Source: Eremomyces bilateralis CBS 781.70 (lineage: Eukaryota > Ascomycota > Dothideomycetes > Eremomycetales > Eremomycetaceae). Taken from it: a stretch of 64,000 nt of DNA. Below the pieces are notes generated by a model. That model did no database searches, had not been told where the DNA came from, and saw only the letters and a list, made by a program, of their open reading frames with translations. The stretch is taken from NCBI RefSeq assembly GCF_010015585.1, contig NW_022985080.1:1-64000 (forward strand), given 5' to 3'. Position 1 is the first letter of the stretch, and the number at the start of each line of letters is the position of its first letter. The translations under genes and the position numbers were made by a program. Positions 7,368 to 45,095 of the stretch are shown here, in pieces.

Positions 7368-10300
7368 ATGTCGGGACAACCGCAGCAGGGCTATCACGAC
7401 GACCGTAGCCATGTCCAGGGCCAAGGTCAGGCCACAGGTCAGGCTCACGGTCAGGTCCCGGGCCAGGGCCACGGGGAAGAGGCCTACTACGACGACCACA
7501 ATCAAGCCTATTATGGCCAGCAAGGTTACGATCAGCAACAACAGCCCGGTGATGCATACTATGATGAATCGTACGCCATCCCTCATCGCTCGACTGCCGC
7601 ATGATTTATCCGCTGATTTGACTGCAGAGGCTATTACGACCAGAATGGACAGACACCCCACCCGAATGACACCTACTATGACAATCAAGGCTATCAAGAT
7701 GGCTACTACGACGACCGCTATTACGATCAAGGTCATCCGGACCAGGGAGGACATGGCTATCACGAGTTCGTGTTTTTTGACCCCGCGAACTCAAACCTCA
7801 ACTAACGGCATTGCAGCGGTCAGCCGAGGGGCCACGGGTACGAGGAAGAATCCGAGACTTTCAGCGACTTCACGATGCGCTCCGACATGGCTCGTGGTGC
7901 CGACATGGACTATTACGGACGTGGCGACGAGCAATACAACAGCTACCATGACGGCCACGGACGTGGATACCGCCCGCCATCGTCCCAGATCTCCTACGGC
8001 GCCAATCGCTCGTCGGGTGCGTCCACCCCCATCTATGGCATGGAATATCAAAACGCACTTCCTGCTGGACAGCGCTCAAGGGAGCCGTACCCTGCCTGGA
8101 CTTCGGAGGCCCAGATTCCTCTCTCCAAGGAAGAGATCGAAGACATCTTCCTGGAACTCACCGCAAAGTTTGGCTTCCAGCGAGATAGCATGCGAAACAT
8201 GTACGATCACTTCATGACTCTGCTTGATTCGAGAACGTCTCGTATGCCGCCGAACCAGGCCCTTCTCTCGCTCCATGCCGACTACATTGGCGGCGACAAC
8301 GCCAACTACCGCCGCTGGTACTTTGCGGCGCAGTTAGATCTCGACGATGCTGTTGGATTTTCCAACATGAAACTAGGCAAAACGAACCGTCGAACCCGCA
8401 AGGCCCGCGCCAAAGCGAAGAAGAACGCCCCACAGAATGAAACCGAGACTCTGGAAGCGTTCGAAGGTGACAACAGCTTGGAGGCGGCCGAATACCGTTG
8501 GAAGACGAAGATGAACCGGATGTCTCAGCACGACCGGGTTCGTCAGATCGCTCTCTACCTCCTCTGCTGGGGAGAGGCCAATCAGGTTCGCTTCACACCC
8601 GAGTGTCTCTGTTTCATCTTCAAGTGTGCGGACGACTATCTCAACTCGCCTGCGTGCCAGCAGCGTGTGGAACCGGTGGAGGAGTTCAGCTACCTCAACA
8701 ACGTCATCACTCCGCTCTACCAGTTTATCCGTGATCAAGGATACGAGATCCAGGATGGCAAGTACATTCGTCGCGAACGCGATCATTCCAGCATTATCGG
8801 TTATGACGACATCAACCAACTGTTCTGGTATCCGGAGGGCATCGAGCGAATCGTCCTGGAAGACAAAACCCGTCTCGTCGATCTGAAGCCGGAGGAACGC
8901 TACGTGAAATTGCACGAGGTCCAATGGAAGAAGGTATTCTTCAAGACATATCGAGAGACTCGGTCCTGGTTCCACCTAATGGTCAACTTCAACCGAATCT
9001 GGGTCATCCACATTACCTCATTCTGGTTCTACACCGCCTTCAACTCGCCACAGCTGTACTTGACGGAACCATACGAGCAGCAGATCGACAACCAACCTCC
9101 AAACCCGTACCGTTGGTCTGCCGTCGGTCTCGGTGGTGCCGTTGCCTCGCTCATTATGATCATTGCCACCCTCTGCGAATGGATGTACGTTCCCCGAAAA
9201 TGGGCTGGAGCTCAGCACCTAACCAAGCGACTCTTGTTCCTGATCGTCGTCTTCATTATCAACCTTGCTCCCAGCGTCTACATCTTCTTCATTGCGAAGA
9301 ACAAGACCAGTAAAGTCTCCCACATCCTCGGTATCGTCCAGTTCCTCATTGCCCTGGCCTCGTTCTTCTATTTCTCCATCATGCCGCTTGGTGGGCTTTT
9401 CGGAAGCTACCTCAAGACAAATACGCGCCGCTACGTCGCGAGCCAGACCTTCACCGCAAGCTATCCACGTCTGAAGGGCAACGATATGTGGATGTCGTAT
9501 GGTCTGTGGGTCATGGTATTTGCCGCAAAATTGGCGGAATCGTACATCTACCTCACGCGGTCCTTCCGTGACCCGATTCGAATCTTGTCTACGATGAAGC
9601 TCTCCTCATGCCTTGGCGATGAAATTATCGGCACCATTCTTTGCTACTGGCAACCGAAGGTCCTACTCATCGTCATGTTCTTGACGGATCTGACCCTCTT
9701 CTTCCTCGATACCTACCTGTGGTACATCATATGCAACACCGTCTTCTCCGTCGCTCGTTCTTTCTACCTCGGCGTCTCCATCTGGACCCCATGGCGAAAC
9801 ATCTTCTCTCGTTTGCCGAAGCGTATCTATTCCAAGGTCTTGGCTACGACTGACATGGAAATCAAGTACAAACCGAAAGTCCTCATCTCCCAGATTTGGA
9901 ACGCTGTCGTCATCTCGATGTACCGCGAGCATCTCTTAGCCATCGATCACGTGCAGAAGCTCCTCTATCATCAGGTTCCATCCGAGCAGGAGGGCAAGCG
10001 AACCCTTCGCGCCCCAACCTTCTTCGTCTCGCAGGAAGACCATTCCTTTAAGACCGAGTTCTTTCCGTCTCAGAGCGAGGCGGAACGACGTATCTCCTTC
10101 TTTGCCCAGTCTTTGTCTACTCCAATTCCCGAGCCTCTGCCGGTCGATAACATGCCCACGTTCACGGTTATGATTCCCCACTACGGCGAGAAGATCCTCT
10201 TGTCGCTTCGTGAGATCATCCGAGAGGACGAGCCATATTCCAGAGTCACTCTGTTGGAATACCTCAAGCAGCTCCATCCTCACGAGTGGGATTGCTTCGT

Positions 10301-13300
10301 CAAAGACACTAAGATTCTCGCGGACGAGACCTCCCAGTTCAACGGCGACAATGAGAAGAGTGAAAAGGACACCCAGAAGAGCAAGATCGACGATCTTCCC
10401 TTCTACTGCATCGGTTTCAAGTCTGCTGCTCCCGAGTACACGCTGCGGACTCGTATCTGGGCTTCGCTTCGATCCCAGACTCTGTATCGTACCATCTCTG
10501 GTTTCATGAATTACAGCCGTGCGATCAAGCTGCTGTACCGCGTTGAGAACCCTGAAGTGGTGCAGATGTTTGGCGGCAACTCCGACAAGCTTGAACGCGA
10601 ACTGGAGCGCATGGCTCGCCGAAAGTACAAGATCGTCGTGTCCATGCAGCGATATGCCAAGTTCTCCAAGGAAGAACGTGAAAACACCGAGTTCTTGCTC
10701 CGCGCGTATCCCGATCTTCAGATTGCCTATCTCGATGAAGAACCGCCGGCGAACGAAGGCGATGATCCTCGTATCTTCTCGGCTTTAATCGACGGTCATT
10801 CGGAGATCATGGAGAACGGCCTAAGGCGTCCCAAGTTCCGCGTTCAACTCTCCGGCAATCCCATCTTAGGTGACGGCAAATCCGACAACCAGAACCATGC
10901 CATCATCTTCTACCGTGGCGAATACATCCAGCTCATCGACGCGAATCAAGACAACTACCTCGAAGAGTGCTTGAAGATCCGATCCGTTTTGGCCGAGTTC
11001 GAAGAAATGACCACCGAAAACGTTTCGCCGTACACCCCTGGCGTCGAACGCGACAAGATCGAGCCCGTGGCTATTCTTGGTGCTCGCGAGTACATCTTTT
11101 CGGAGAACGTCGGAATTCTCGGTGACGTTGCCGCCGGGAAGGAACAAACGTTCGGTACCCTGTTCTCTCGTACTTTGGCTCAGATTGGCGGTAAACTTCA
11201 TTACGGCCATCCGGATTTCCTGAACGGCATCTACATGACGACTCGTGGCGGTGTCTCCAAAGCTCAGAAGGGTTTGCATCTCAACGAGGATATTTACGCT
11301 GGTATGAATGCGCTCATCCGTGGTGGTCGCATCAAGCACTGTGAATATTACCAATGTGGTAAGGGTCGTGACTTGGGCTTCGGCTCGATTCTCAACTTCA
11401 CGACGAAGATCGGCACTGGTATGGGAGAGCAGATGCTTTCTCGCGAATACTACTATCTCGGAACACAGCTCCCTCTCGATCGGTTCCTGTCCTTCTACTA
11501 CGCTCACGCCGGTTTCCACGTCAACAACTTGTTCATCATCTTGTCGGTGCAACTTTTCATGTTCGCCGCCATCAATCTTGGTGCCCTCCGACACGAGACC
11601 ATCACTTGCAAGTACAACTCGCGTGTCCCGATTACCGATCGTCTTTACCCAACGGGGTGCGCCAACACGGCACCGATCTTGGACTGGATGGAACGTTGCG
11701 TCGTTTCGATCTTCATCGTCTTCTTCATCTCGTTCGTCCCTCTTGTCGTCCAGGAACTGACCGAACGTGGCTTCTGGCGTGCTGCGACCCGTCTTGCGAA
11801 GCACTTTTCGTCGTTGTCTCCCCTCTTCGAGGTGTTCGTCTGCCAAATCTATGCCAATTCCCTGCATTCGAATCTGTCGTTCGGTGGTGCTCGATACATC
11901 GGAACGGGTCGGGGCTTCGCTACTGCTCGCATCCCCTTCGGTATCCTCTACTCGCGGTTCGCCGGCCCTTCCATCTACATGGGAGCGCGTCTGCTTATGA
12001 TGTTGGTATTCGCCACGCTGACCACCTGGTCCGTCTTCCTGCTGTACTTCTGGATTTCGCTCCTAGCTTTGTGCATCTCGCCGTTCCTTTTCAACCCCCA
12101 TCAGTTCGCGTGGAACGACTTCTTCATCGACTACCGTGAGTACCTCCGCTGGCTCTCCCGTGGAAATACCAAGTCGCACTCCGCATCCTGGATCGGGTTC
12201 TGCCGGCTGACACGGACACGCATTACGGGATACAAGCGCAAGGCCCTCGGCGATCCTTCCGCCAAGCTGTCGGGCGATGTCCCACGAGCGCACTTCACCA
12301 ACATCTTTTTCAGTGAGATCATCTCGCCTCTGCTTCTGATCATCGTCTGCCTGGTCCCGTACTTGTATATCAACGCACAGACGGGCGTGAACGAGAACAA
12401 CAACCCCGACAAAGAGCTCAAAGCCACGAACTCGCTCATCCGCGTTGGCATTGTGGCTTTCGCACCTGTCGCCATCAACGCCGGCGTTCTGGGAGGCATG
12501 TTCGCTATGGCTTGCTGCGCGGGTCCTTTGCTGTCCATGTGCTGCAAGAAATTTGGCGCCGTCCTCGCCGCAATCTCCCACGCCATCGCGGTCGTCATGC
12601 TGCTTGCCTTCTTTGAGGTCATGTTCTTCCTTGAAGGCTGGTCATTCAGCAAAGCCATGCTCGGAATGATCACGGTCGTTGCAATCCAACGATTCGTCTA
12701 CAAGCTGATCATTTCGCTGGCTCTAACGCGTGAATTCAAAGCGGACGCTTCCAATATCGCATGGTGGACGGGCAAATGGTACGCCATGGGTTGGCACACC
12801 ATCTCTCAGCCGGGCCGTGAATTCCTCTGCAAGATCACTGAGCTTGGCTACTTCGCAGCGGACTTCATCCTCGGACATGTTCTGCTGTTCGTAATGCTGC
12901 CGCCGCTACTTGTTCCGTACATCGACAAGGTCCATTCGGTTATGCTGTTTTGGCTGCGCCCAAGGTATGCTATGCAACAATGCGCTTGAAAGCTTTCCAA
13001 CTAACATCTATGCAGCCGACAAATCCGACCGCCCATCTATTCCCTCAAGCAGACCAAACTCCGCAAACGACGCGTCATCCGCTATAGTATCCTGTACTTC
13101 GTGATGCTGGTCGTGTTCATCGCGCTGATTGTCGGGCCTCTCGTTGCTGGCGGCGCCCTGAAGAACCTTCCGGAAATTCCGTTGAATCTCCTACAGCCTA
13201 CCAAGATGGAGAACAACGACACGCGGAATTATTCCAAGACCGGCCGTACGCTGCAAGAGCCCGATGAAACTGCCGGGGGCGGAGGTACTGGTAGTACGGG

Positions 13301-30491: not shown

Positions 30492-33400
30492 ATGTTTCGA
30501 AACCGGTAAGTTTATGGAGTTTGATTTTGTGCATGCTACTGTCTTCATCAAACGAGACAGCCAGCCTCTGGCTGGTGATGACCGAAATACACCAAACAAG
30601 GCGCGGCTCGAAGTCCGCAACTCGGCTGACCCGACTTGTTCGCAGGACTGGCTCCCAGAAACCCAACGAGGAGTTGATAGCAAGTTTCAAGTCAAGCTAT
30701 CCACAACTCGCGACAACCTCTGGCTCCTCTGTCGCTCCTATCCAAGGCCATACGTCGCTAACCGATGCTCTGGATGTCGCTGTACAGTCCCGGTAAGTGA
30801 ATTGCGTGGATGCACCTTTACATGGCCCATCATTTCCCTTTTCGACATCACCCTTCAATCTACTCCGCCCTGCCAGTCCCTTTCAAATGCCAGTCAATCA
30901 CAGAAATAGAACCGTTTGCCCCTTCGCTTTTTAAACCCTCATTACTATCGTTTCGTATCAATAATCAAACCCGATATATACATGTCACTGTCTTTTGGAG
31001 TTATACTAACATGGCGCTCGTTTACCATAATAGTCCCTTCCCAGAGGACCATGATATCAAAGATGAGGATCCTACCCCGAGAGGAAATCCTGAGCAATGG
31101 CGGTTTACACCCTCGATAATGGATCCCAATTCTTTCACCTTTACTTCTTTCGCCAATCAGCCGCCTGGCTACTATACCCCGACGCCTGGTGGCACGAACA
31201 CCTTCTATCACAGTCAAGCTGGAGATCTTCATACTCCCGGCTTCACTATGGGGCTGGGGACTCCGCTCTCTTTACCACATGTAACCTCAGAAGGTGGACC
31301 GGCCACTACAGCCCCGTTGCACGGGTTTCAGCCATCCATCGCGCCGCTCCATTTTCAGAACCCGAACCCTTTCGCAATCCCTCATCACCCGGAATCATTT
31401 GCTCCACATCAGTTCCAGCAGCCAGAGTCTTCCTTCCATCCGTTGGAGACCAGCCACGAGGACCCTTCAATAGGCGACATGCATGTCGATGTTGAGATGC
31501 ACGAAGACCCCCAGGCGCTATCTTTTCCTGCGACCTTTGAGCAGACGAGTTTGATGCCCCATGCTCCTCAACAAGCTCTTGAGAAGTAAGCGTACCATTT
31601 GAAATTTGTTCATGATTTTGATTCTTACATGGCCCAGTTTCCGATATCACGTTACTTTGAATGCTCCGACAGCAATGATCAAACACGCAGACGAGATACC
31701 AGTCACTTATCTGAACAAAGGACAAGCATACTCTATCTCGGTCGTCGATACCAGACCAGAACACATGTCTGGGGTTATACCCCGATACCGAACGTTCGTC
31801 AGAATATCATTCGAAGACGAACAGCAGCGACAACGACCGACCGCATGCTGGCAACTTTGGAAAGAAGGCCGAGGATCAAATGAGGCTCATCACCGTGGTG
31901 GTCGACTGCAGGCCGTCGAATTCGTTGATCCATCTCAAATCGGTGGCGGCGAGCTGCTCGGACGACCACAGGTCGAAGTGGACTGCGCCTCTTTCGATGG
32001 GTTCGCGGTATTCTGGTCCCCCCCGCCAGGCGGATCAAGCGAATGCTCCATCGCTGTTAGATTCAACTTTCTCTCCACCGATTTCAGCCACTCGAAAGGC
32101 GTCAAGGGCATCCCAGTGCGACTCTGCACCAAGACCGAGTTGGTGACCTTCGAGGGTCCCCAAGGCTCTCCGGAGCAGATTCCACCGAACCAGACTATTA
32201 CCACAACACCCGAAACATGTTATTGCAAAGTCAAGCTATTCCGTGACCATGGTGCGGAACGCAAGCTCTCGAATGACGTCGCCCACGTCAGGAAATCGAT
32301 CGAGAAATTGAAAACCCAGATTTCCAACCTCGAATCTGGCTTGAAAGACTTCGGCAAACGCAAACGTGCAAGCCTGGAATCGAAGACGATTGCTGGGAGC
32401 TCACGGCCGGGCAAGGTTCCGAAGCACAAGCGCACCTGGAGCATGTCGAGTGCAAGCACTGGCGAGCGAGAGGGCAGTGGAAGAGGAGGCGCTGAGGAGG
32501 ACCTTCATCTCAAGCTGGCTACTCTTCAAGACATGTTTACCAGTACTCGACCAGCCAGTGTCCTTTATTTGAAAGGAGAGGAACCAGATGATCCGGACCT
32601 CCATCCTGTTCACCTGACCGGTACTGAGGCGTTCGATTTGGTAACAAAATTGGATGCTTCTACTGGTCCCCTGGACGCTGGCGTCTGGGAGCGCCAAAGT
32701 GGTCACTCGAGCAGCATTGTAAGCCCTACACCAAGTACGCGCAGTATCCACAGCGGCGGTCGAAGAAGCTCGCAGATTGCGCCATTTAATCCCTCGGGCA
32801 GAATTGAGAGCAATGAATGGCGCAGCATAACCGGTCAGACTGCTACTGGCGACCTTCCTGGACAATCGGTGACCGCGAACATGGCCGGGCAGTTGTCAAG
32901 CGTCCCTGAGGGTCCTGTGAAGGTCCCGAAACAAAGTACTGGCGGTGACGACGGCCACAGCTTATCAGGATGGATAGAGGCGATCGGCGTGGACTATAGT
33001 TACCAACCGCCATCCGAACAGGCGATGAAGCCAAGTGAGTCCCCCCCATTTTTTTATTTTAAAAAAAACCAAAAAACATCTTGTTTGCATTGTCTAACGT
33101 GAAGAGCAATAGTTGCAAGTTTCTATATTCTTCCACGCTTGCGCGGCCAACCCTCTGACGACCCCTATTACCGCGCCATCTACCTCATGACTCGAACCGC
33201 GAAAGACTTGACCGATACCATTTCTGCGAAATGCGGTATCGATCCAACCTTGGTGCAACGTGCTCTGCGCGTCAACGCGAAAGGACTCAGCATCCTCATC
33301 GACGACGACGTGGTCCGTGAAATGCCGGAAGGCATGGATATGGTCGCCGAGTTCGTTGATCTGAAGCCAGAGCGTGGTATCGACAGTCTGCCCGCGCCTC

Positions 33401-33516
33401 CTGCACGAACGAAGGGCGAGTGGGATCCCGATCATACCGATATTCAACTCGACAGTGACATCGGGATTGTTGAAGATAATCGAGTGGACGTGTGGGAACT
33501 ACGCCTCATTTTCTAA
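30492..33516 (+). CDS. CP2/Grainyhead-family transcription factor
   Basis: Model: exons 30492-30505, 30646-30792, 31034-31585, 31638-33034 and 33113-33516, giving 837 residues. The 14-nt first exon (MFRN plus two bases) splices in frame to a 147-nt exon and then to the main body; all three junctions agree in phase. A Pro-rich region is followed by the CP2 DNA-binding domain (about 238-470), starting FRYHVTLNAP and containing the block KGIPVRLC. A coiled coil (about 450-480), a basic Ser-rich linker and a C-terminal dimerisation-type domain (last 135 residues) complete the protein. Family members bind DNA as dimers; fungal members are linked to cell-wall and conidial separation genes in Neurospora. 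An alternative start at 31011 would lie inside intron 2, next to a perfect TACTAAC branch site. Confidence 0.88.
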
Positions 33517-36504
33517 TCCTTCTCCATGGAGCTGCCGGCCCAATAATCGCATTCCTTACGACGCATCTTTCTTTGACCAAGACTGGTTCCCAAGCGAACA
33601 AATACCTCCCTAGCTAAGGGTTCCTTAACTCTAATATTTCTTACGGACTTGCATCGGCGAAATAGGTGTTGCTTCAATGCACTCCTTTGACCATTTCGCC
33701 AACGATCACGCTAAATTTGGATCAACTATTTACTTCAATGATACCCCGAAATCTTTTTGTCCTTATTCCTTTCAACGACCAAGCAATGATAACGGGCAAT
33801 GATTCCTCCTTCATAAATTCCCTGCAAAAATTTTATTGCCGAGGGCACGGAATTTCCACTCACTCTCCTTTGTTTCTTGGAGTTAGCTTTGGATTTATCT
33901 ATCGGGATTAATTCTCTGCCACCCTACAGCCGGTCACCATTAGATCTCGCGAACTGTCTTTGCCCATGAAATTCATTTCTAATATATGAGATACCCCGAT
34001 CCTTCATGATCAACACAATAATGTGCTTTCCTACGTCCGCTTTGCCTCCCAAGCGCCATGTAGGAAAGGAGGTGGGCTGTGCGGCACACTTTGGACCACG
34101 TACTGTACCCTGGACAGGGAATTTTCTCCTTTATTCGCAGTTTCGGAATTCCTTTAACTTGTTGGCGCGGATTGGCTCGTGGCTGGCCACAGCTAGCGCG
34201 GTCATCCCCCCTTTGACTTCAGTCTGTATGTCTCCGAGCAAATATATGGCGAATTATTGGCCCAAGGGACGAGTATTGTTCTCTCATATGTAAAGGTAAT
34301 CAAAACCTGCCTAAGATAATTTACAGCGCGTTTGAAGAGGATGGGGTCTCCTTGGGCGCAATTCACCCCCACCCTTTTGTTTCAGCGGCCGACAGTTCGA
34401 TCCATTCAGTACCTACGATATAAGTTGGACGCCTTGCGATCACCTCACTCGACGTGCCAACTTTCTACAAACCATTGGCCATTCCGGTGGACTGGAAAGC
34501 TGGTTCCCTGCAGCCTTGGGCCAGTGAGGATTCTTACCGGGTTCTCGTCGAAATGGCACCCTGAGGTGTGCATTAGGGCTGTCTCTGTCAAGTTCGATTC
34601 TGCGAGTTAAATCGCTGATACGGACTTGATATCTAGGAGTCTGACGGGATACGCTGGGGAACGCTGCCTGGGAGGTGATGGCTCGGCCCTTAGGGTGTTA
34701 ATACGGGACCATTGGCTACGGCCCCAGGAGAAAGCGAGGGGGGGCTCGAAGATGCAGGAAGACGTAGCTGAGCATATCGAGTTGACGAAGGTTTATTGAT
34801 AGTGACAACGGTGATGCATCCAACGGCACATGGATCAGACCACGCGCAGGTTATTCGACAGATTCAGGGCCCTGTGGCAGAAGCCGATGCAGGAGAGTCT
34901 GCCAGGACCTAGGGGAAACCATGTGCATGGAGGAGTGGGATGTTCAGGAGAACGCGTGTCCAACGGACGGTGAGAGGTTGGAGATGTTAGGATCTTCGTG
35001 CCTTGTACCACCTTTCTCTACGAGCGCTGCAAAACCACCATAAAAAGAATGAAACCATGGGATTTGGTCGAGATCGTCCTTACTTTCAGTGTAGGAAGTG
35101 ATATGCGGACAACCCTCCTTGCGTGTACATTGCACTGCTCGCTTCCATGCGGAGGCCATTACACGACAACAGAAGGATTTACTGGGACCCTCTTCTATAT
35201 TTTAATTTTATTGAATATACCGACAGTCTGGTACGAGCACCAACAGCATCCAGGTCCATAGTGTAGTGTTGAGGCATACAGTACCCGGCGCATGTAAGGT
35301 ACATACATAGTATGTATCGATCACGATCGTGATCTATCCTGCCACCATACATGTACATCAACGTGGCAGCATGGTATAGGTACATGTCTGGCGACCATGT
35401 CAGAGATCACCTTGTTTGACGCATGGGGAGTCATTGCTGGTGGTATTTCTCTTTCACGTTACTGTTTTTGGATGTTAGGGCGTACGACGCTCGCCACCAC
35501 CGACGTTTCTTCGCGATCTGCAACTTGAAACGCTCGGAACTAGGGTTGCGCAAGAACATCCCGCTGACCACTGTGCTATTCCCAGGAGCTCCTGCTATCT
35601 ACGGGTACGATGATTGGATAACCCCCTTTTCGATTAAATTGTTTCCAGATGGGCGTGTATGACTGCGTCATTGAACGGGCGGTGCTCAGCTCGCCTTTGT
35701 CGAATATTTATCGAACCAGGACATTGAAAAGGTCTGGAAGGAGGTTGGATCCTAGGTATGCCATGTAGACACAAACTGCGGAAACGAGGGGATGCTGGAA
35801 GCCTATCTGCAAGAACCTGTAGCTGTAGGGCATCCACTGGGGGAGAAGGTTCCGGAACAATCCACTAGTACTAAATACTGCTCCATGCAAGATGCACCGA
35901 CTGACGAGTGGTGCAGGTAAAAATGGTAAGTTCGCATCATGATATCATCTGCCTGACTATGGATTCTATCACGCTGAAGCTAGGGCACACTGCCACGTCG
36001 ACAACAAGGATCGCCAACGCCACGACATTTACTACCTCGTCATCGGACCTATGCCGAGGACTACTACCTTAACAATCAGTGGCGCCGGCAACATTCAAAG
36101 GAGGCAATCTTGTATCATGGTCATTCATTAGACATGGAGTCATTTCACCAATATCAATACATAACTAGCATTTGCGTAGAGCCCTATGACCGAAACCGAG
36201 GCTCGCGAGTATTACATCATCCTCTTTAAGTAGGTCAGAACTTGTATAATACCATTCTTAGATATATGTAATATAACCTTGGCAACTGTGCAACCGCTCA
36301 ACTCCAGACAAATTGAATTGATACATCCAAATACATTCCTATACTTCTGAAGCTCTTGCGACTAGAGTGACCTATGTACAGTACATCGACGAAGTGTATG
36401 AAAGCCATGTCCCTTGGAACTCAGTATTGGCGGAAGCGAAGCTTGAACACGTCAGTAAGACACAGTAGCAACGGCTGGTGTAGTATCCACAAACCTCAAT
36501 GAGA
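33517..36504. other. Gene-poor region between CP2 gene and peptide precursor gene
   Basis: About 3 kb with no gene I can support. Palindromes occur at 35303-35334. Short frames such as 35423-35662 and 36340-36467 look weakly protein-like but lack domains or consistent splice sites. The 3' end of the small precursor gene lies at its right border. Confidence 0.4.
35303..35334. repeat. Two adjacent perfect palindromes
   Basis: ATACATA-G-TATGTAT (35303-35317) is followed after one base by the perfect 16-bp palindrome GATCACGATCGTGATC (35319-35334). They lie in otherwise featureless DNA. They could be binding sites for dimeric factors or chance; there is no gene within 1 kb to assign them to. Confidence 0.6.
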
Positions 36505-36800
36505 TCAGCTATTGAATGGGACAACACCGCCCTCTGGCGTCGACTGGACCGGCGCAGTGTCACTTGGGGCGCGGACGACTATATCTTCGACAGCGCGTTT
36601 ACTGTTGAAGGGAACAACGCCACCGTCAACAGTGGACTTCACGGGCTGGGTATCACTCCGTGCCGATACAGCTACCGATATTGTGTTAGCTAATACCAGT
36701 TCTGGTGCTTAAGTACATGCGTCCTCATACCATCGCTGACCGGAGCCGCATAGCCGAAGGCGAGGAGAGTAAAGATGGACATGAGAATGCTAGACCGCAT
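36505..36800 (-). CDS. Small secreted precursor with two copies of a GGVVPFNS peptide
   Basis: Minus-strand exons 36731-36800 and 36505-36671 give 78 residues. The intron (36672-36730, 59 nt) has donor GTATGAGG, a GCTAAC branch site and acceptor TAG. Residues 1-19 form a clear signal peptide (hydrophobic FTLLAF core, then GYAAP), so the product should enter the secretory pathway. The rest is two related segments, SDTQPVKSTVDGGVVPFNS then Lys-Arg (48-49), and SDTAPVQSTPEGGVVPFNS ending at the stop codon. Six of the eight codons for GGVVPFNS differ between the copies, all silently, so the peptide itself appears selected. Lys-Arg is the Kex2 cleavage signal; Arg28 and Arg57 are further possible sites. 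The upstream DNA is pyrimidine-rich with ACTTAACAAG before the ATG. No known family was recognised; it resembles pheromone or Kex2-processed RiPP precursors in design. Confidence 0.65.
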
Positions 36801-39244
<2,444 letters not shown>

Positions 39245-39804
39245 TAACCTCCATCTTTGGATCATACCCAAAGTTAGAAGCATTCAAGGACACTGAAGTG
39301 GGCTACCTTTCTTTTCCTGCTGAAGGTAATTCCTGAATTACAACCCAAATGATTAGATGACAGATGAACAAAGCTACTCCCCAACCTTGATGACTCTCCT
39401 TTCTCAAATGGCTGAGTCGAAGAGTGATATTTCTTGTTTGGTGTGATGAGAGAGAGAGATTCATACGCCCGTCAGGCCTCTCAGTGAGGCCCATGTGGGT
39501 GTTTGGTGTGGTGAGAGAGAGATTCATACGCCCGTCAGGCCTCTCAGCGAGGCCCATGTGGGGTGTTTGGTGTGGTTTAATTGATATTTTTATTTTGGAG
39601 CCTTGTAATGGAATTTGGTGTGGTGCTAGGAAGAAGAATATTTTACGTGAGGTAAACAAGGCAACCATCATGTGATATGAATCACATGTGCACAGCATGA
39701 TGATGATCGCGAATCTCAACCGCTCAAACTGCGAGAGAGCAAAGTCATAGAACCAAATGGCCAATTTCTAAAATACTACTCCTCTAGAAGAGGATCTGAA
39801 ACTG
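39245..39804. other. Intergenic region with tandem repeat, RING gene promoter
   Basis: 560 bp between the AMMECR1 and RING genes. It contains the 64/65-bp tandem repeat at 39437-39577. The rest is AT-rich with no gene; the end is the RING gene leader. Confidence 0.5.
39437..39577. repeat. Tandem repeat of 64-65 bp with internal hairpin
   Basis: Unit 1 (39437-39501) and unit 2 (39502-39565) differ at only a few positions. A third unit begins (TTTGGTGTGGT, 39566-39576) and TTTGGTGTGGT recurs near 39614. Each unit contains GAGAGAGA followed by GCCTCTCAG(T/C)GAGGC, which can form a stem-loop. Confidence 0.85.
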
Positions 39805-40737
39805 ATGAGCCCAAATCTCGATGTGACAACATCCACCTCTACGGCAGACGCATGCGTCATTTGCCTCGATAACGTATCTGAAAGGGCAGAATCGGTACCG
39901 TGTGGGCACTGCTCATTTGACTTCATATGTCTTGTGAGTTGGTTACAGGAACAGGCTCTATGTCCTCTTTGTATGCTATGCTTGAATTTGTAATGCCAAC
40001 CATATACTGACATTACTGAAGGCAAAGCGCCTACTCGCGCAGTCCGATATGACCATTCCCCCACCGACCCTTCAACTTATAAGACGTTCGTGGTACGACC
40101 TCCCAATGCTCGCCCCCCAAATATCCAAGGACAGTCTGCCTCTTCGAGCCGGCACCGGAACTTCCGCATCATAACTCGCCCGTCGAGACGACCAAATCGC
40201 GCCGTCCGTCCATGGGGGTCAAGGGCAACACCTCCCCCACCTGATACTGCCCTTTTGCGTCGAAGAGAGGTCTACAGGCATGGCCTTTACTCGCTTCATG
40301 TCGGGAGTAACCGCCTTTCTCGGTACCGGACCATCACGCCGGCCATATTCTCACACGATGCAGATCTGCAGCGACGAGCGAGGGCGTGGATTCGACGTGA
40401 GTTGCGAGTCTGGTCCTGGCTGGACCCGGACGCGAGCGGCGACTCTACCCATTCCGGGCCACAGAGTAGCGCAGCTCCGCCAACTCGGAGGGCAGCCAAT
40501 GCAGAATTCCTTTTGGAATACATCATTTCCATACTGAGAACGGTGGATATCAAAGGCGCATCGGGAACTGCTGAGGAGCTATTGTCAGAGTTCTTAGGCA
40601 CAGACGATTCACGCCTGTTCTTGCACGAACTTAGCAGCTGGCTGCGAAGCCCGTTTACGAAGGTTGAAGACTGGGACCGCGCTGCTCGATATCCCGAGGT
40701 TGGTTGGGGCGTTCAGCAGGAAATAACGGATGACTGA
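39805..40737 (+). CDS. RING-finger protein, Topors-like E3 ubiquitin ligase
   Basis: Exons 39805-39970 and 40022-40737 (51-nt intron splitting the last RING cysteine codon) give 293 residues. The RING (about 17-57) has CVICL, CGHC, FICLVSW and CPLCK motifs in C3HC4 order. The order and the downstream [10 protein letters not shown] segment resemble the RING of Topors/ICP0-type proteins. An Arg/Pro-rich linker follows (about 80-130), then a helical C-terminal region (about 195-285) with a SWLRSPF block seen in fungal Topors-like proteins. The likely role is E2-dependent ubiquitin transfer in the nucleus, inferred from family. It converges with the amidoligase gene, 234 bp away. Confidence 0.85.
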
Positions 40738-40971: not shown

Positions 40972-42417
40972 TTACTTGAAGAGCCTGTTGAAAGTCTGGT
41001 AGATTCCGTCGAGCTCCAATTCTGTGGCATCCCAACTATCTTCTGTCGGGCCCCAAGCGGGCGTGCTGCGGTAGGAGTTCAGGTTGAGACCGTGCCAATT
41101 AGTTTTCGCAAAACCTTTCAGGAAGCTCTCGTGAAAGTCTCCACCGGCATTGGCGCGGCCGCTGTGACGCGTCTGGGGATAGGCACCGTGGAGCTTCTTC
41201 CAGATGACCACCGCCACTGCAGTTGGGTGTACATCTACCGCATTCCTTCTAGCCACGTACTCAGCCAGAGAGTAGAATAGCGATGACTTACCGATTGTCG
41301 GGGTAGACTGTTGCCACCTACGGTTCATTTTTGAGATGTAGGTGTTGATGACCACTGGCGGGCAGGAAAGATCCAAGACCAGCTCTGCGAACGAGTATTT
41401 GGGGTTACGCGATTGTTTGAGGAGACGCTTTACCTGGTCGAGAGGCGTCCTCAAGGCATATTTGCCGATTGCGCCAACGAACGCAACCCAAGAGATGATC
41501 TCGGCCGCATCGAAGGTGCTTCGATGCTGTCGGAATTCCACCGTATCCTTCGCGTAGCGGCTCTCGCTAAGCTTACGAAGATTCCTGTAGTTGACCGCAT
41601 AATTCCGAACTTCGCAGTCGAGAGCACGTTTGAGGCCGTCCCAGGTTTCCACTGATTCGATTTTCGCCGTCCACCAGGCGAGGGGGTCGCTGAGAATTCC
41701 CGGCTTGGTGGCATTGTTGTTGTATCGAAGTGTATTTGGCTTGCTCCAATGGTGGAGGGGGGAAATCCGAGAGGCGGTATGGATCTGATCGATGAACCGC
41801 TCGAAGACGGTGGTAATTCCCTCGATGGTTTTCACTGAACCCTTCGAGAAGCCCCCTTTCTTGGTGCCAATGTGGACGTGGAAGCCCGTATTACCATTGG
41901 TCAGGATGTGGAAATACGACCCGGGCTTGTTGAAGTGTACCTGAACAGCCCTGAGCACTGTTTTGATTTCTGATGACCATTTCTGCTGGTCTGAAAGCTT
42001 GTAGATCGGCGAGTTGAGTTCAATGCCGAAAGGTGTGTATGAACCGGAGTGCCCGAGGTGGGCAAGAGACCTCTCCAATCGACTGTCCTCGTCGTCCGTC
42101 AAGTGAACTGAATTGTCTTCACACACGAGCCACTTCTTGTACATCTCTTTGCTAGTAATCTCGCGACTGTCAACGAGGACGTCGGTTAATGCAGTGTTGC
42201 TGTGAATGGCATGACGAACCTCCATTAATCCCTCGAAGGGTGCCGCGTAGACGACTGAAACTCCGTTGGAGAAAATGTTCGGACGCTTGTATTTCGAGTT
42301 GTTCAGGACCAAGAGAACCAACTCAATCTCCACGCCAATCGTCAACTCTTCAGGTGAGTCATCAAGATTATGAGGGGCGGCGGCCTTGCAAAGACTAGAG
42401 ATCGTATTCTTGAGCAT
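40972..42417 (-). CDS. Putative amidoligase (glutamate-cysteine-ligase-like fold)
   Basis: 481 residues, no intron. The pattern GVEIEL (about residues 28-33), the block GFHVHIGT (about 190) and VEFRQHRSTFD (about 290) match the Pfam amidoligase family, related to glutamine synthetase/glutamate-cysteine ligase enzymes that join an amine to a carboxylate with ATP. Glu in the first motif and His/Glu in the later ones are the expected metal and ATP ligands. The substrate is unknown. Family members have been proposed to modify peptides or make peptide-like metabolites. The gene is minus-strand, convergent with the RING gene and 593 bp upstream (genomically) of the gup1 3' end. A small secreted peptide precursor lies about 4.2 kb to the left. 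Confidence 0.8.
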   Translation of the reverse strand: MLKNTISSLCKAAAPHNLDDSPEELTIGVEIELVLLVLNNSKYKRPNIFSNGVSVVYAAPFEGLMEVRHAIHSNTALTDVLVDSREITSKEMYKKWLVCEDNSVHLTDDEDSRLERSLAHLGHSGSYTPFGIELNSPIYKLSDQQKWSSEIKTVLRAVQVHFNKPGSYFHILTNGNTGFHVHIGTKKGGFSKGSVKTIEGITTVFERFIDQIHTASRISPLHHWSKPNTLRYNNNATKPGILSDPLAWWTAKIESVETWDGLKRALDCEVRNYAVNYRNLRKLSESRYAKDTVEFRQHRSTFDAAEIISWVAFVGAIGKYALRTPLDQVKRLLKQSRNPKYSFAELVLDLSCPPVVINTYISKMNRRWQQSTPTIGKSSLFYSLAEYVARRNAVDVHPTAVAVVIWKKLHGAYPQTRHSGRANAGGDFHESFLKGFAKTNWHGLNLNSYRSTPAWGPTEDSWDATELELDGIYQTFNRLFK

Positions 42418-43010: not shown

Positions 43011-45095
43011 TCAGCATTTCATCTTGATTCTATGTCTTAGCTCCTCTTCCCTGAGCTCGAACATGATCTGAGCCCCAACAAAGAGTGTCCCTGATGCTGC
43101 TGCAACGTAGAGAAGGCCCGACCAACTGCCAACGATGCCGTGTACAAGACTTTTGATTCCATCCAAGCCAATGGCAAAACCGACGAGGTTCGCCACCATC
43201 ATCATTATAATGTTCCCGACGGCCCCGATGCCGCAGATTATTCGGTAGGCATTTGGCCTCGACTGCCATTGATGTTTTGGAAACAGTTTACTGGCAAGAA
43301 CCTCTGGCATCACGAAGAAGGAGACGAGCCAACCCCATTGCAGCAACCGGAGTTGGATATCGTGCCAGATGGCAACGAACATGAAGACCATCAAGAAGTT
43401 GGCTGCTGCATGGAGTTTTCCCCACACTCCTGTTGTGAGACTGCCGCCGAGGGGAATGTAGATGTATCTAACAATCCACCGATTGTAGCTGCGATGCCAC
43501 CCTCTCCAAAAGGCAAGGGCAGAGTAGTTGTTGCTCATGCAACGGACCATATTCTCGGGTGCATCGATTCCATCCAGCAGGCCCCACAGGCGGAAAAACC
43601 GCCAAGGTAGTAACAACTTCAGCCAGATGTGGTGAAGGTTGAAGAAGCCAAGCATGCTTAACTGGAATGGACTATATACGCTCCAGTCTGGTTTGGCCTT
43701 GAATATGGCGACGGCGTATATGAAATGTATGAAGAGTTCCATGGCCAGAAGTGCAGCAAAGAATCTTATTGCGTAGAGCACGGTTCGTTCTCGCGTTACA
43801 CTAGCTGCTCGGTAGCGCAGCTGGGATACATAATCATTGAATGTGAGAATGGGACCGGCGAGGTAAAGGGGAGAGTAGAGAGTATATGCCAGGTAGTTGC
43901 GAAAGTTGAAGTCCATGGGCTTGGCTGGAATGCTCACGCGATCTCGTTCAGAGAGACTAGAGGGGTCGAGCTGTTTCTTCTTTGGCGAATTAGTCCAGTG
44001 CTATAGGTCTAGAGACCACGACGTACCTCAATCGGACTGCCACCCCGTTGATTAAGGCTCCAATAATAGTCCATATTGAATGAAATGAGACGAAGAACGG
44101 TGATCTTGAAAAGAACCTCCCATCTAGGTATCAATCCCTGGTATCGGTCGAGCAACACGCCCCAATTTTCCACGGGAACACCTTTATCGACCATTCCTGC
44201 GCCCTTATGGGGAAATATGAAGGCTGCCACGTTGGCGAGAGGATAGCCTCTCCCGAACTCGTTCGCAAACAAAATAACGATGTTAAAAATCCATGTTGCT
44301 GCGGGTATGTACTTCCGGGGGAGATTCTTCCCTAACTCATAATTGATGTACAGAATAATCAAGACCTTGATCGCAGAGACGCCGTGCAATGCAGCTATGA
44401 AGGCAATTGCGAAAGCGAAATCAAATCGAGCGCGGTATGCCAATCGAGTATCAGCAGCCGCCTGTGCGCTCAATCCCTGGGAAAGCTGGGAATGGGAACG
44501 ATTGACGTTGGGCGGTGGTGCAGTATAGGAATCCAACCGCCAAAACAATTCATAGACTTTTCTTAGGAGAGGATGAAGAATCGCAACAAGAAATAAGTAT
44601 GGAAGATTGTCCCTGAAGGAAGAGAACTGTCCATCGGAGTTGTCCTAGATGGCAGTCAGAGCCAGGAGCATATGGCTACGGCGAACTTTCAAGGAAATAG
44701 AGTCACCATACCACTCGACGCCCGGGAATCCAGCCTTTAGAAAGGAGTGGGGCATATCTTGAGAAACTCGGATGCGATTCTAGTAATTATTAGTCAATTC
44801 GTTTTAGATTCGGACAGAGCATGGTCATAGCAGTACCTCTTGATACATCGATCACCGACCAAAACATCAACAGTACCGCCGTGGAGACGATAAAATAGTA
44901 GAAGTAGAATTCAGTACTCTTCCATTTTGACGGCTGTGCCTCATCGTGGAATCGCGACTTGGCTTTCTGCCTCGAACCAGACGGTTGAGGCTGGAGGCGA
45001 GCATCTGTGTTAGGGGGGTTGGTGGACGGAACTACGAACCTCGTGTCCAACGTCTCAAGCGTGTACAGGCGGGCGAAAAATGCGAGCAAGCTCAT
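43011..45095 (-). CDS. gup1: Gup1-type MBOAT O-acyltransferase
   Basis: Minus-strand exons 44837-45095, 44712-44779, 44027-44644 and 43011-43979 give 637 residues; introns are 57, 67 and 47 nt and all phases agree. The protein begins MSLLAFFARLYTLETLDTRF and continues with the FYFYYF membrane start and the GWIPGRRVDNSDGQ loop typical of Gup1. It then shows many membrane spans, including LPRKYIPAATWIFNI, and the MBOAT histidine in VAIWHDI. Yeast Gup1 is an ER enzyme that remodels the lipid of GPI anchors and affects membrane and wall structure; early reports linked it to glycerol uptake. It shares a 479-bp divergent promoter with arp4. Confidence 0.93.

Follow-up and report, generated by a model that had tools for sequence, protein, structure and literature searches.

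Does a short minus-strand stretch of fungal DNA, in which the octapeptide GGVVPFNS is written twice, hold the gene of a secreted precursor from which peptides are released by processing, and to which kind of precursor would such a gene belong? The window analysed here is the whole stretch of 64,000 nucleotides, in which a first-pass annotation had proposed a two-exon gene for a processed peptide. Its coordinates and splice sites were reproduced, as were the branch site GCTAAC, the intron of 59 nt, the length of 78 residues and the Lys-Arg pair, giving the following features.

36731 to 36800, minus strand: exon 1, by translation an ATG with the signal-peptide-like segment MRSSILMSIFTLLAFGYA, then the cut preferred here, then APVSD.
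36672 to 36730, minus strand: predicted intron of 59 nt with consensus sites, GTATGA...GCTAAC...TAG.
36505 to 36671, minus strand: exon 2, by translation the remainder of both peptide units and the stop codon.
36601 to 36624, minus strand: core copy 1, GGVVPFNS, the end of the 29-residue unit 1, followed by Lys-Arg.
36595 to 36600, minus strand: Lys-Arg (AAA CGC), the presumed Kex2 site and the only dibasic pair in the protein.
36508 to 36594, minus strand: unit 2, 29 residues, AVEDIVVRAPSDTAPVQSTPEGGVVPFNS, up to the stop codon, by gapless alignment to unit 1.
36508 to 36531, minus strand: core copy 2, GGVVPFNS, immediately before TGA.

The spliced minus-strand model yields a 78-amino-acid protein, MRSSILMSIFTLLAFGYAAPVSDAVSARSDTQPVKSTVDGGVVPFNSKRAVEDIVVRAPSDTAPVQSTPEGGVVPFNS, in which exon 1 encodes MRSSILMSIFTLLAFGYAAPVSD from an ATG with an A at -3, while exon 2 closes with TGA and is joined at the intron AG with the frame kept open. 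Upstream of exon 2, its frame contains no ATG as far as the next stop, so the splice is needed. Where the first-pass annotation placed a signal peptide, our own rule sees a signal-peptide-like start, with small residues and a hydrophobic core that is 8 residues long and averages 2.48 on the Kyte-Doolittle scale. A crude script rule printed the first acceptable cleavage site, after residue 14; the cut preferred here, after residue 18 (FGYA|A), is chosen on the -3/-1 rule for signal cleavage. The long AT-rich flanks thought to hide the gene from simple gene finders are hardly AT-rich, with a GC content of 0.48 and 0.49 against 0.52 for the window.

With the cut at FGYA|A, the remaining protein consists of 29 residues, KR, another 29 residues and the stop. 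The two 29-mers align without gaps and share 18 of 29 residues, the last eight among them, and their identity climbs toward the C-terminus, from 3/9 through 7/12 to 8/8. The length of about 19 residues assigned earlier to the two aligned segments grows to 29 with the FGYA|A signal cut; the equal length of the units is suggestive only, fitting this cut but depending on the choice of it. Each unit contains one aromatic residue and no Tyr, Trp or Cys, and the computed [M+H]+ values of the unmodified 29-mers are 2887.443 and 2938.479. Copy 1 runs up to KR and copy 2 up to the stop codon, so that cutting and removal of KR would leave both with a common free C-terminus.

The same architecture could be read as that of a small, internally duplicated secreted protein that stays uncut and works on a host or at the fungal cell wall or surface, as the signal-peptide-like start, the lack of a known domain and the single dibasic site would allow. 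Such a protein would have no Cys for folding, and its tightest constraint would fall exactly at the two would-be C-termini, one beside KR and the other beside the stop, which makes this reading unlikely.

How often such a repeat arises by chance was assessed by searching the six frames of the window for open, identical 8-mer pairs at most 100 codons apart, excluding 8-mers made up of four or fewer different residues. GGVVPFNS was the only pair with more than two differing codons; all remaining pairs came from a 63-bp DNA tandem array at 39435-39576 and differ in two codons at most. None of 60 random windows generated by a first-order Markov chain contained any 8-mer pair. Two-exon models with a signal-peptide-like start, by our own rule, begin at 14 ATGs in the window, and an internal repeat of at least five residues was found only for the gene's Met1 and the in-frame Met7; in 12 random windows, each holding between 1 and 6 such ATGs, internal repeats reached a length of 4 at most. 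The repeat in the gene is thus more than chance. The tandem array itself comprises 2.2 copies and holds a GCCTCTC...GAGGCC element, judged by eye to be inverted.

Six of the eight GGVVPFNS codons differ between the copies (36624-36601 against 36531-36508), every change being silent, in agreement with the first-pass annotation. Over the last 20 codons, a stretch picked after the alignment had been seen, there are 21 nucleotide differences, 15 of them in third positions, and 15/20 residues are identical (pS 0.92, pN 0.156); the full 29 codons hold 39 differences, of which 23 fall in third positions (pS 0.92, pN 0.28). In 20,000 neutral simulations, which placed the same number of differences randomly on copy 1 with transitions favoured, the observed protein identity was matched in 0/20,000 draws for the last 20 codons and 0/20,000 for the 29 codons, and the octapeptide alone was equally conserved in 1/20,000. 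Protein-level selection on the duplicated core is supported by this pattern. The earlier argument that silent divergence reflects selection on the peptide holds to the extent that the core is conserved at the protein level, but a frame on the opposite strand shows much the same degree of conservation, so silent divergence alone cannot fix the strand.

That antisense frame, the only one of the six over the last 20 codons to be conserved besides the minus gene frame, covers 36508-36672 (+), with wobble facing wobble. It is open through both repeats and retains 15/19 residues (0/20,000 draws), which could indicate that the conserved frame is that of the plus strand (LLNGTTPPSGVDWTGAVSL...), or that only a remnant, decayed or non-coding, is present at the locus. 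This is improbable: the frame has no ATG between its stops, and the start, the signal, the consensus intron and the stop at the unit end all lie on the minus strand. Moreover, the minus frame has the higher synonymous share of changes (14/21 against 11.8/19) and, over exon 2, the better codon score (0.115 against -0.106 bits per codon).

Codon scores were referred to 95 segments from seven long Pfam-matching window ORFs, whose 5th to 95th percentile runs from -0.05 to 0.45 bits per codon; the complete minus coding sequence scores 0.165. When only synonymous choice is counted, the coding sequence reaches 0.072 against a reference median of 0.109. A 64-aa plus-strand ORF at 36499-36693 scores 0.195, slightly above exon 2, and its repeats are not conserved (4/20). 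Codon use is therefore compatible with a gene and no proof of one.

The explanation preferred here is a Kex2-cut secreted precursor of linear signalling peptides whose common C-terminus is the active part, to which a probability of roughly 0.55 is assigned. Its narrower component, a real secreted precursor that is cut at KR, is likely in our estimate, more so than the whole. In the proposed course of events, the signal peptide would take the prepropeptide, presumably that of a filamentous ascomycete, into the secretory pathway, Kex2 would cleave after the single Lys-Arg, and Kex1-type trimming would strip Lys-Arg from copy 1, leaving two linear peptides of at most 29 residues, both ending in ...GGVVPFNS-COOH. 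The variable N-terminal parts would serve as spacers, and the C-terminal octapeptide would be what is recognised, most likely as an extracellular self-signal, either a non-mating peptide hormone or a pheromone-like signal, perceived via some receptor. Splicing, secretion and cleavage are predicted from the sequence, and signalling is suggested by the design alone. An 829-aa open frame of the host genome matches the P_proprotein domain (E 9.5e-28) and is taken to be Kex2. Weighing against the precursor reading are the conserved antisense frame, the codon score of the 64-aa plus-strand ORF, the single dibasic site, the presence of only two copies and the lack of a Ste13 signature after KR.

Searches of Pfam, NCBIfam and PDB with the 78-aa protein returned no match, and the host genome (26.6 Mb, 62 contigs) yielded no paralogue either to a six-frame protein search or to a degenerate GGVVPFN pattern. 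A search for the ITS4 primer site, as a pointer to the taxon, was also negative. In the viral collection 69 stretches fit the peptide pattern and in the prokaryotic collection 301, with 0 confirmed by tblastn in either, as expected for a fungal gene. The core had been described as unlike any known, and this was upheld by the absence of GGVVPFNS and GVVPFN from the 5.39 million papers searched, together with the lack of a family-database match. The fragments GGVV, VVPF and PFNS occur in none of the main texts of PMC7329392, PMC6339444, PMC12048977 and PMC7099791.

A rival reading takes the gene for that of the alpha-type pheromone with which this fungus mates, its core having departed from the canonical one. 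The two-Cys alpha core takes forms such as WC...GQ.C, and neither this type nor PYGxPxG is present in the protein, whose core is GGVVPFNS. Three exact matches to the pattern WCxxxGQxC were found in the unspliced frames of the host genome, none of them in a pheromone-like frame, leaving room for a diverged pheromone such as this gene, with its two copies, KR and C-terminal core. Alpha pheromones do vary by lineage, those of the Pleosporales using PYGxPxG, and some alpha-factor precursors carry fewer than the usual four copies, according to the available text of PMC6339444. Against this identification, the core contains neither Trp nor Cys, and KR is followed by AVED in place of a Ste13 signature (XA/XP); a start of unit 1 with AP would require the FGYA|A signal cut. 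The MF_alpha profile gave no match, with a model of only 13 positions built on yeast factors. The host genome matches STE3 strongly (PF02076, 3.9e-58) and gave no match to STE2 (PF02116), a weak argument since the STE2 search had no positive control. Membership in the alpha-factor family, raised by the first-pass annotation, is accordingly not supported, and a diverged alpha pheromone appears a rather doubtful identity for the product.

Another class named at the outset, the substrates of UstYa-type modifying enzymes, was approached through a profile search of the host genome, in which UstYa (DUF3328, PF11807) gave 11 matches on six contigs. None falls on the gene's own contig (C14, 638,805 bases), and none was obtained among the 19 window ORFs scanned with Pfam, out of 82 ORFs of at least 100 aa, and the proposal is not supported. 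According to the available text of PMC7329392, the genes of 22% of such precursors are accompanied by UstYa (DUF3328) genes, and given this figure the lack of UstYa on the contig fits an unmodified linear product. Between 33516 and 38220 there is no other ORF of at least 100 aa, and genes of the window, near and farther off, are as follows.

7875 to 12989: beta-glucan synthase gene, tentatively Eurotiomycete-like.
31612 to 33102, plus strand: CP2-family transcription factor gene, on the left side, by Pfam.
33187 to 33516: ORF, probably the next exon of the CP2-family gene.
From 38220, plus strand: AMMECR1 gene, on the right side, by Pfam.
Near 39806: RING-finger-like open frame, read by eye.
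40972 to 42417, minus strand: long ORF of the Amidoligase_2 family (3.4e-15).
43011 to 43916, minus strand: HHAT-like MBOAT gene.

Precursors of this design were sought by scanning for 7-residue repeats with at least three differing codons inside one unspliced frame, over 120 kb around UstYa matches and 144 kb of C14 (the window and 80 kb more). Five frames were returned, namely the GGVVPFNS gene, a precursor on contig C3 with its antisense image, a precursor on C15 and a low-complexity SPSP frame on C21; the stretches scanned on C32, C16 and C35 returned nothing, nor did the 80 kb of C14 outside the window. The C3 frame (1761358-1761837) encodes a 159-aa secreted precursor with five DGDDAVVY(S/A)WK(V/I)PE units and KR between them. 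Two UstYa matches lie near it, the closer one at 1.6 kb, which makes the locus a likely dikaritin-type cluster; this precursor, too, closes with a copy that lacks KR after it. The C15 frame (582760-583503) encodes a 247-aa secreted precursor rich in Tyr, Gly and Pro, which has four units, sites of the KR/RR kind and the tail KREAEA and lies at a distance of 1.9 kb from UstYa matches. The recovery of two UstYa-adjacent precursors indicates that the scan finds precursors of such a design and that the genome appears to make them.

A separate observation concerns the UstYa matches of C16 and C35, where a 2524-base segment (C16:394507-397030 and C35:46411-48934) is 99% identical in opposite orientation and spans the matches within a 351-aa frame, suggesting that the UstYa-matching frame was recently duplicated or travels on a mobile segment.

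The general precursor design shared with the C3 and C15 genes, together with amidoligase-family and HHAT-like MBOAT genes 4 to 7 kb away, could also point to a modified, perhaps cyclic, RiPP of ustiloxin (dikaritin) type, whose enzymes would be encoded elsewhere or be of another kind. With C14 free of UstYa matches, units that offer a single aromatic residue each and no Tyr, Trp or Cys, and an AMMECR1 gene and a RING-finger-like frame intervening between the precursor gene and the amidoligase, there is little probability that the product belongs to this type.

The preferred reading, in which Kex2 would release linear signalling peptides from the precursor, can finally be set beside known systems. 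To our knowledge, little is known of fungal peptide signals apart from mating factors. A more far-reaching proposal, tentative and on balance improbable, is that GGVVPFNS may form the conserved C-terminal end of a fungal peptide hormone not described before, with a non-Ste2 receptor, representing a class of two-copy precursors missed by a three-copy rule, in a fungus whose genome yielded no alpha-factor receptor and no canonical alpha-factor to the searches. The gene is easily missed, being small, in need of a splice and without a match in the families searched. Scanning for silently diverged repeats, which recovered two classical precursors here, could uncover further ones of this kind, the present gene still being a single candidate known from sequence alone.

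Like ascomycete alpha-factor precursors, the gene combines a putative secretory precursor, predicted KR processing and a repeated core, but it lacks the W/C or PYGxPxG core and the Ste13 signature after KR. With UstYa-linked precursors of the dikaritin/ustiloxin type, including those on C3 and C15, it shares a predicted secreted, multi-copy product with KR between copies, and it differs in having two copies against five and four, no UstYa on its contig and no Tyr in its units.

Also close in design are the Kex2-processed repeat proteins (KEPs), secreted precursors in which a Kex2 site delimits repeated units at least 8 residues long. In the available text of Le Marquer 2019 (PMC6339444) and Umemura 2020 (PMC7329392), at least three repeats are required, and in that of Umemura 2020 the repeats span 8 or more and at most 100 residues (PMC7329392). 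The present gene has KR between its repeats and a repeat size within this range (29 residues, 18 identical), but only two copies, so that it would be passed over by both surveys as described there and is not filed as a KEP, though it looks built to work like one. The same available text of PMC7329392 reports about five such precursors per ascomycete strain, with 2560/7878 standing alone, so that one more such sequence comes as no surprise. Judged by its predicted architecture, the gene looks to belong to the broad kind of Kex2-cut multi-copy secreted peptide precursors, at the two-copy limit.
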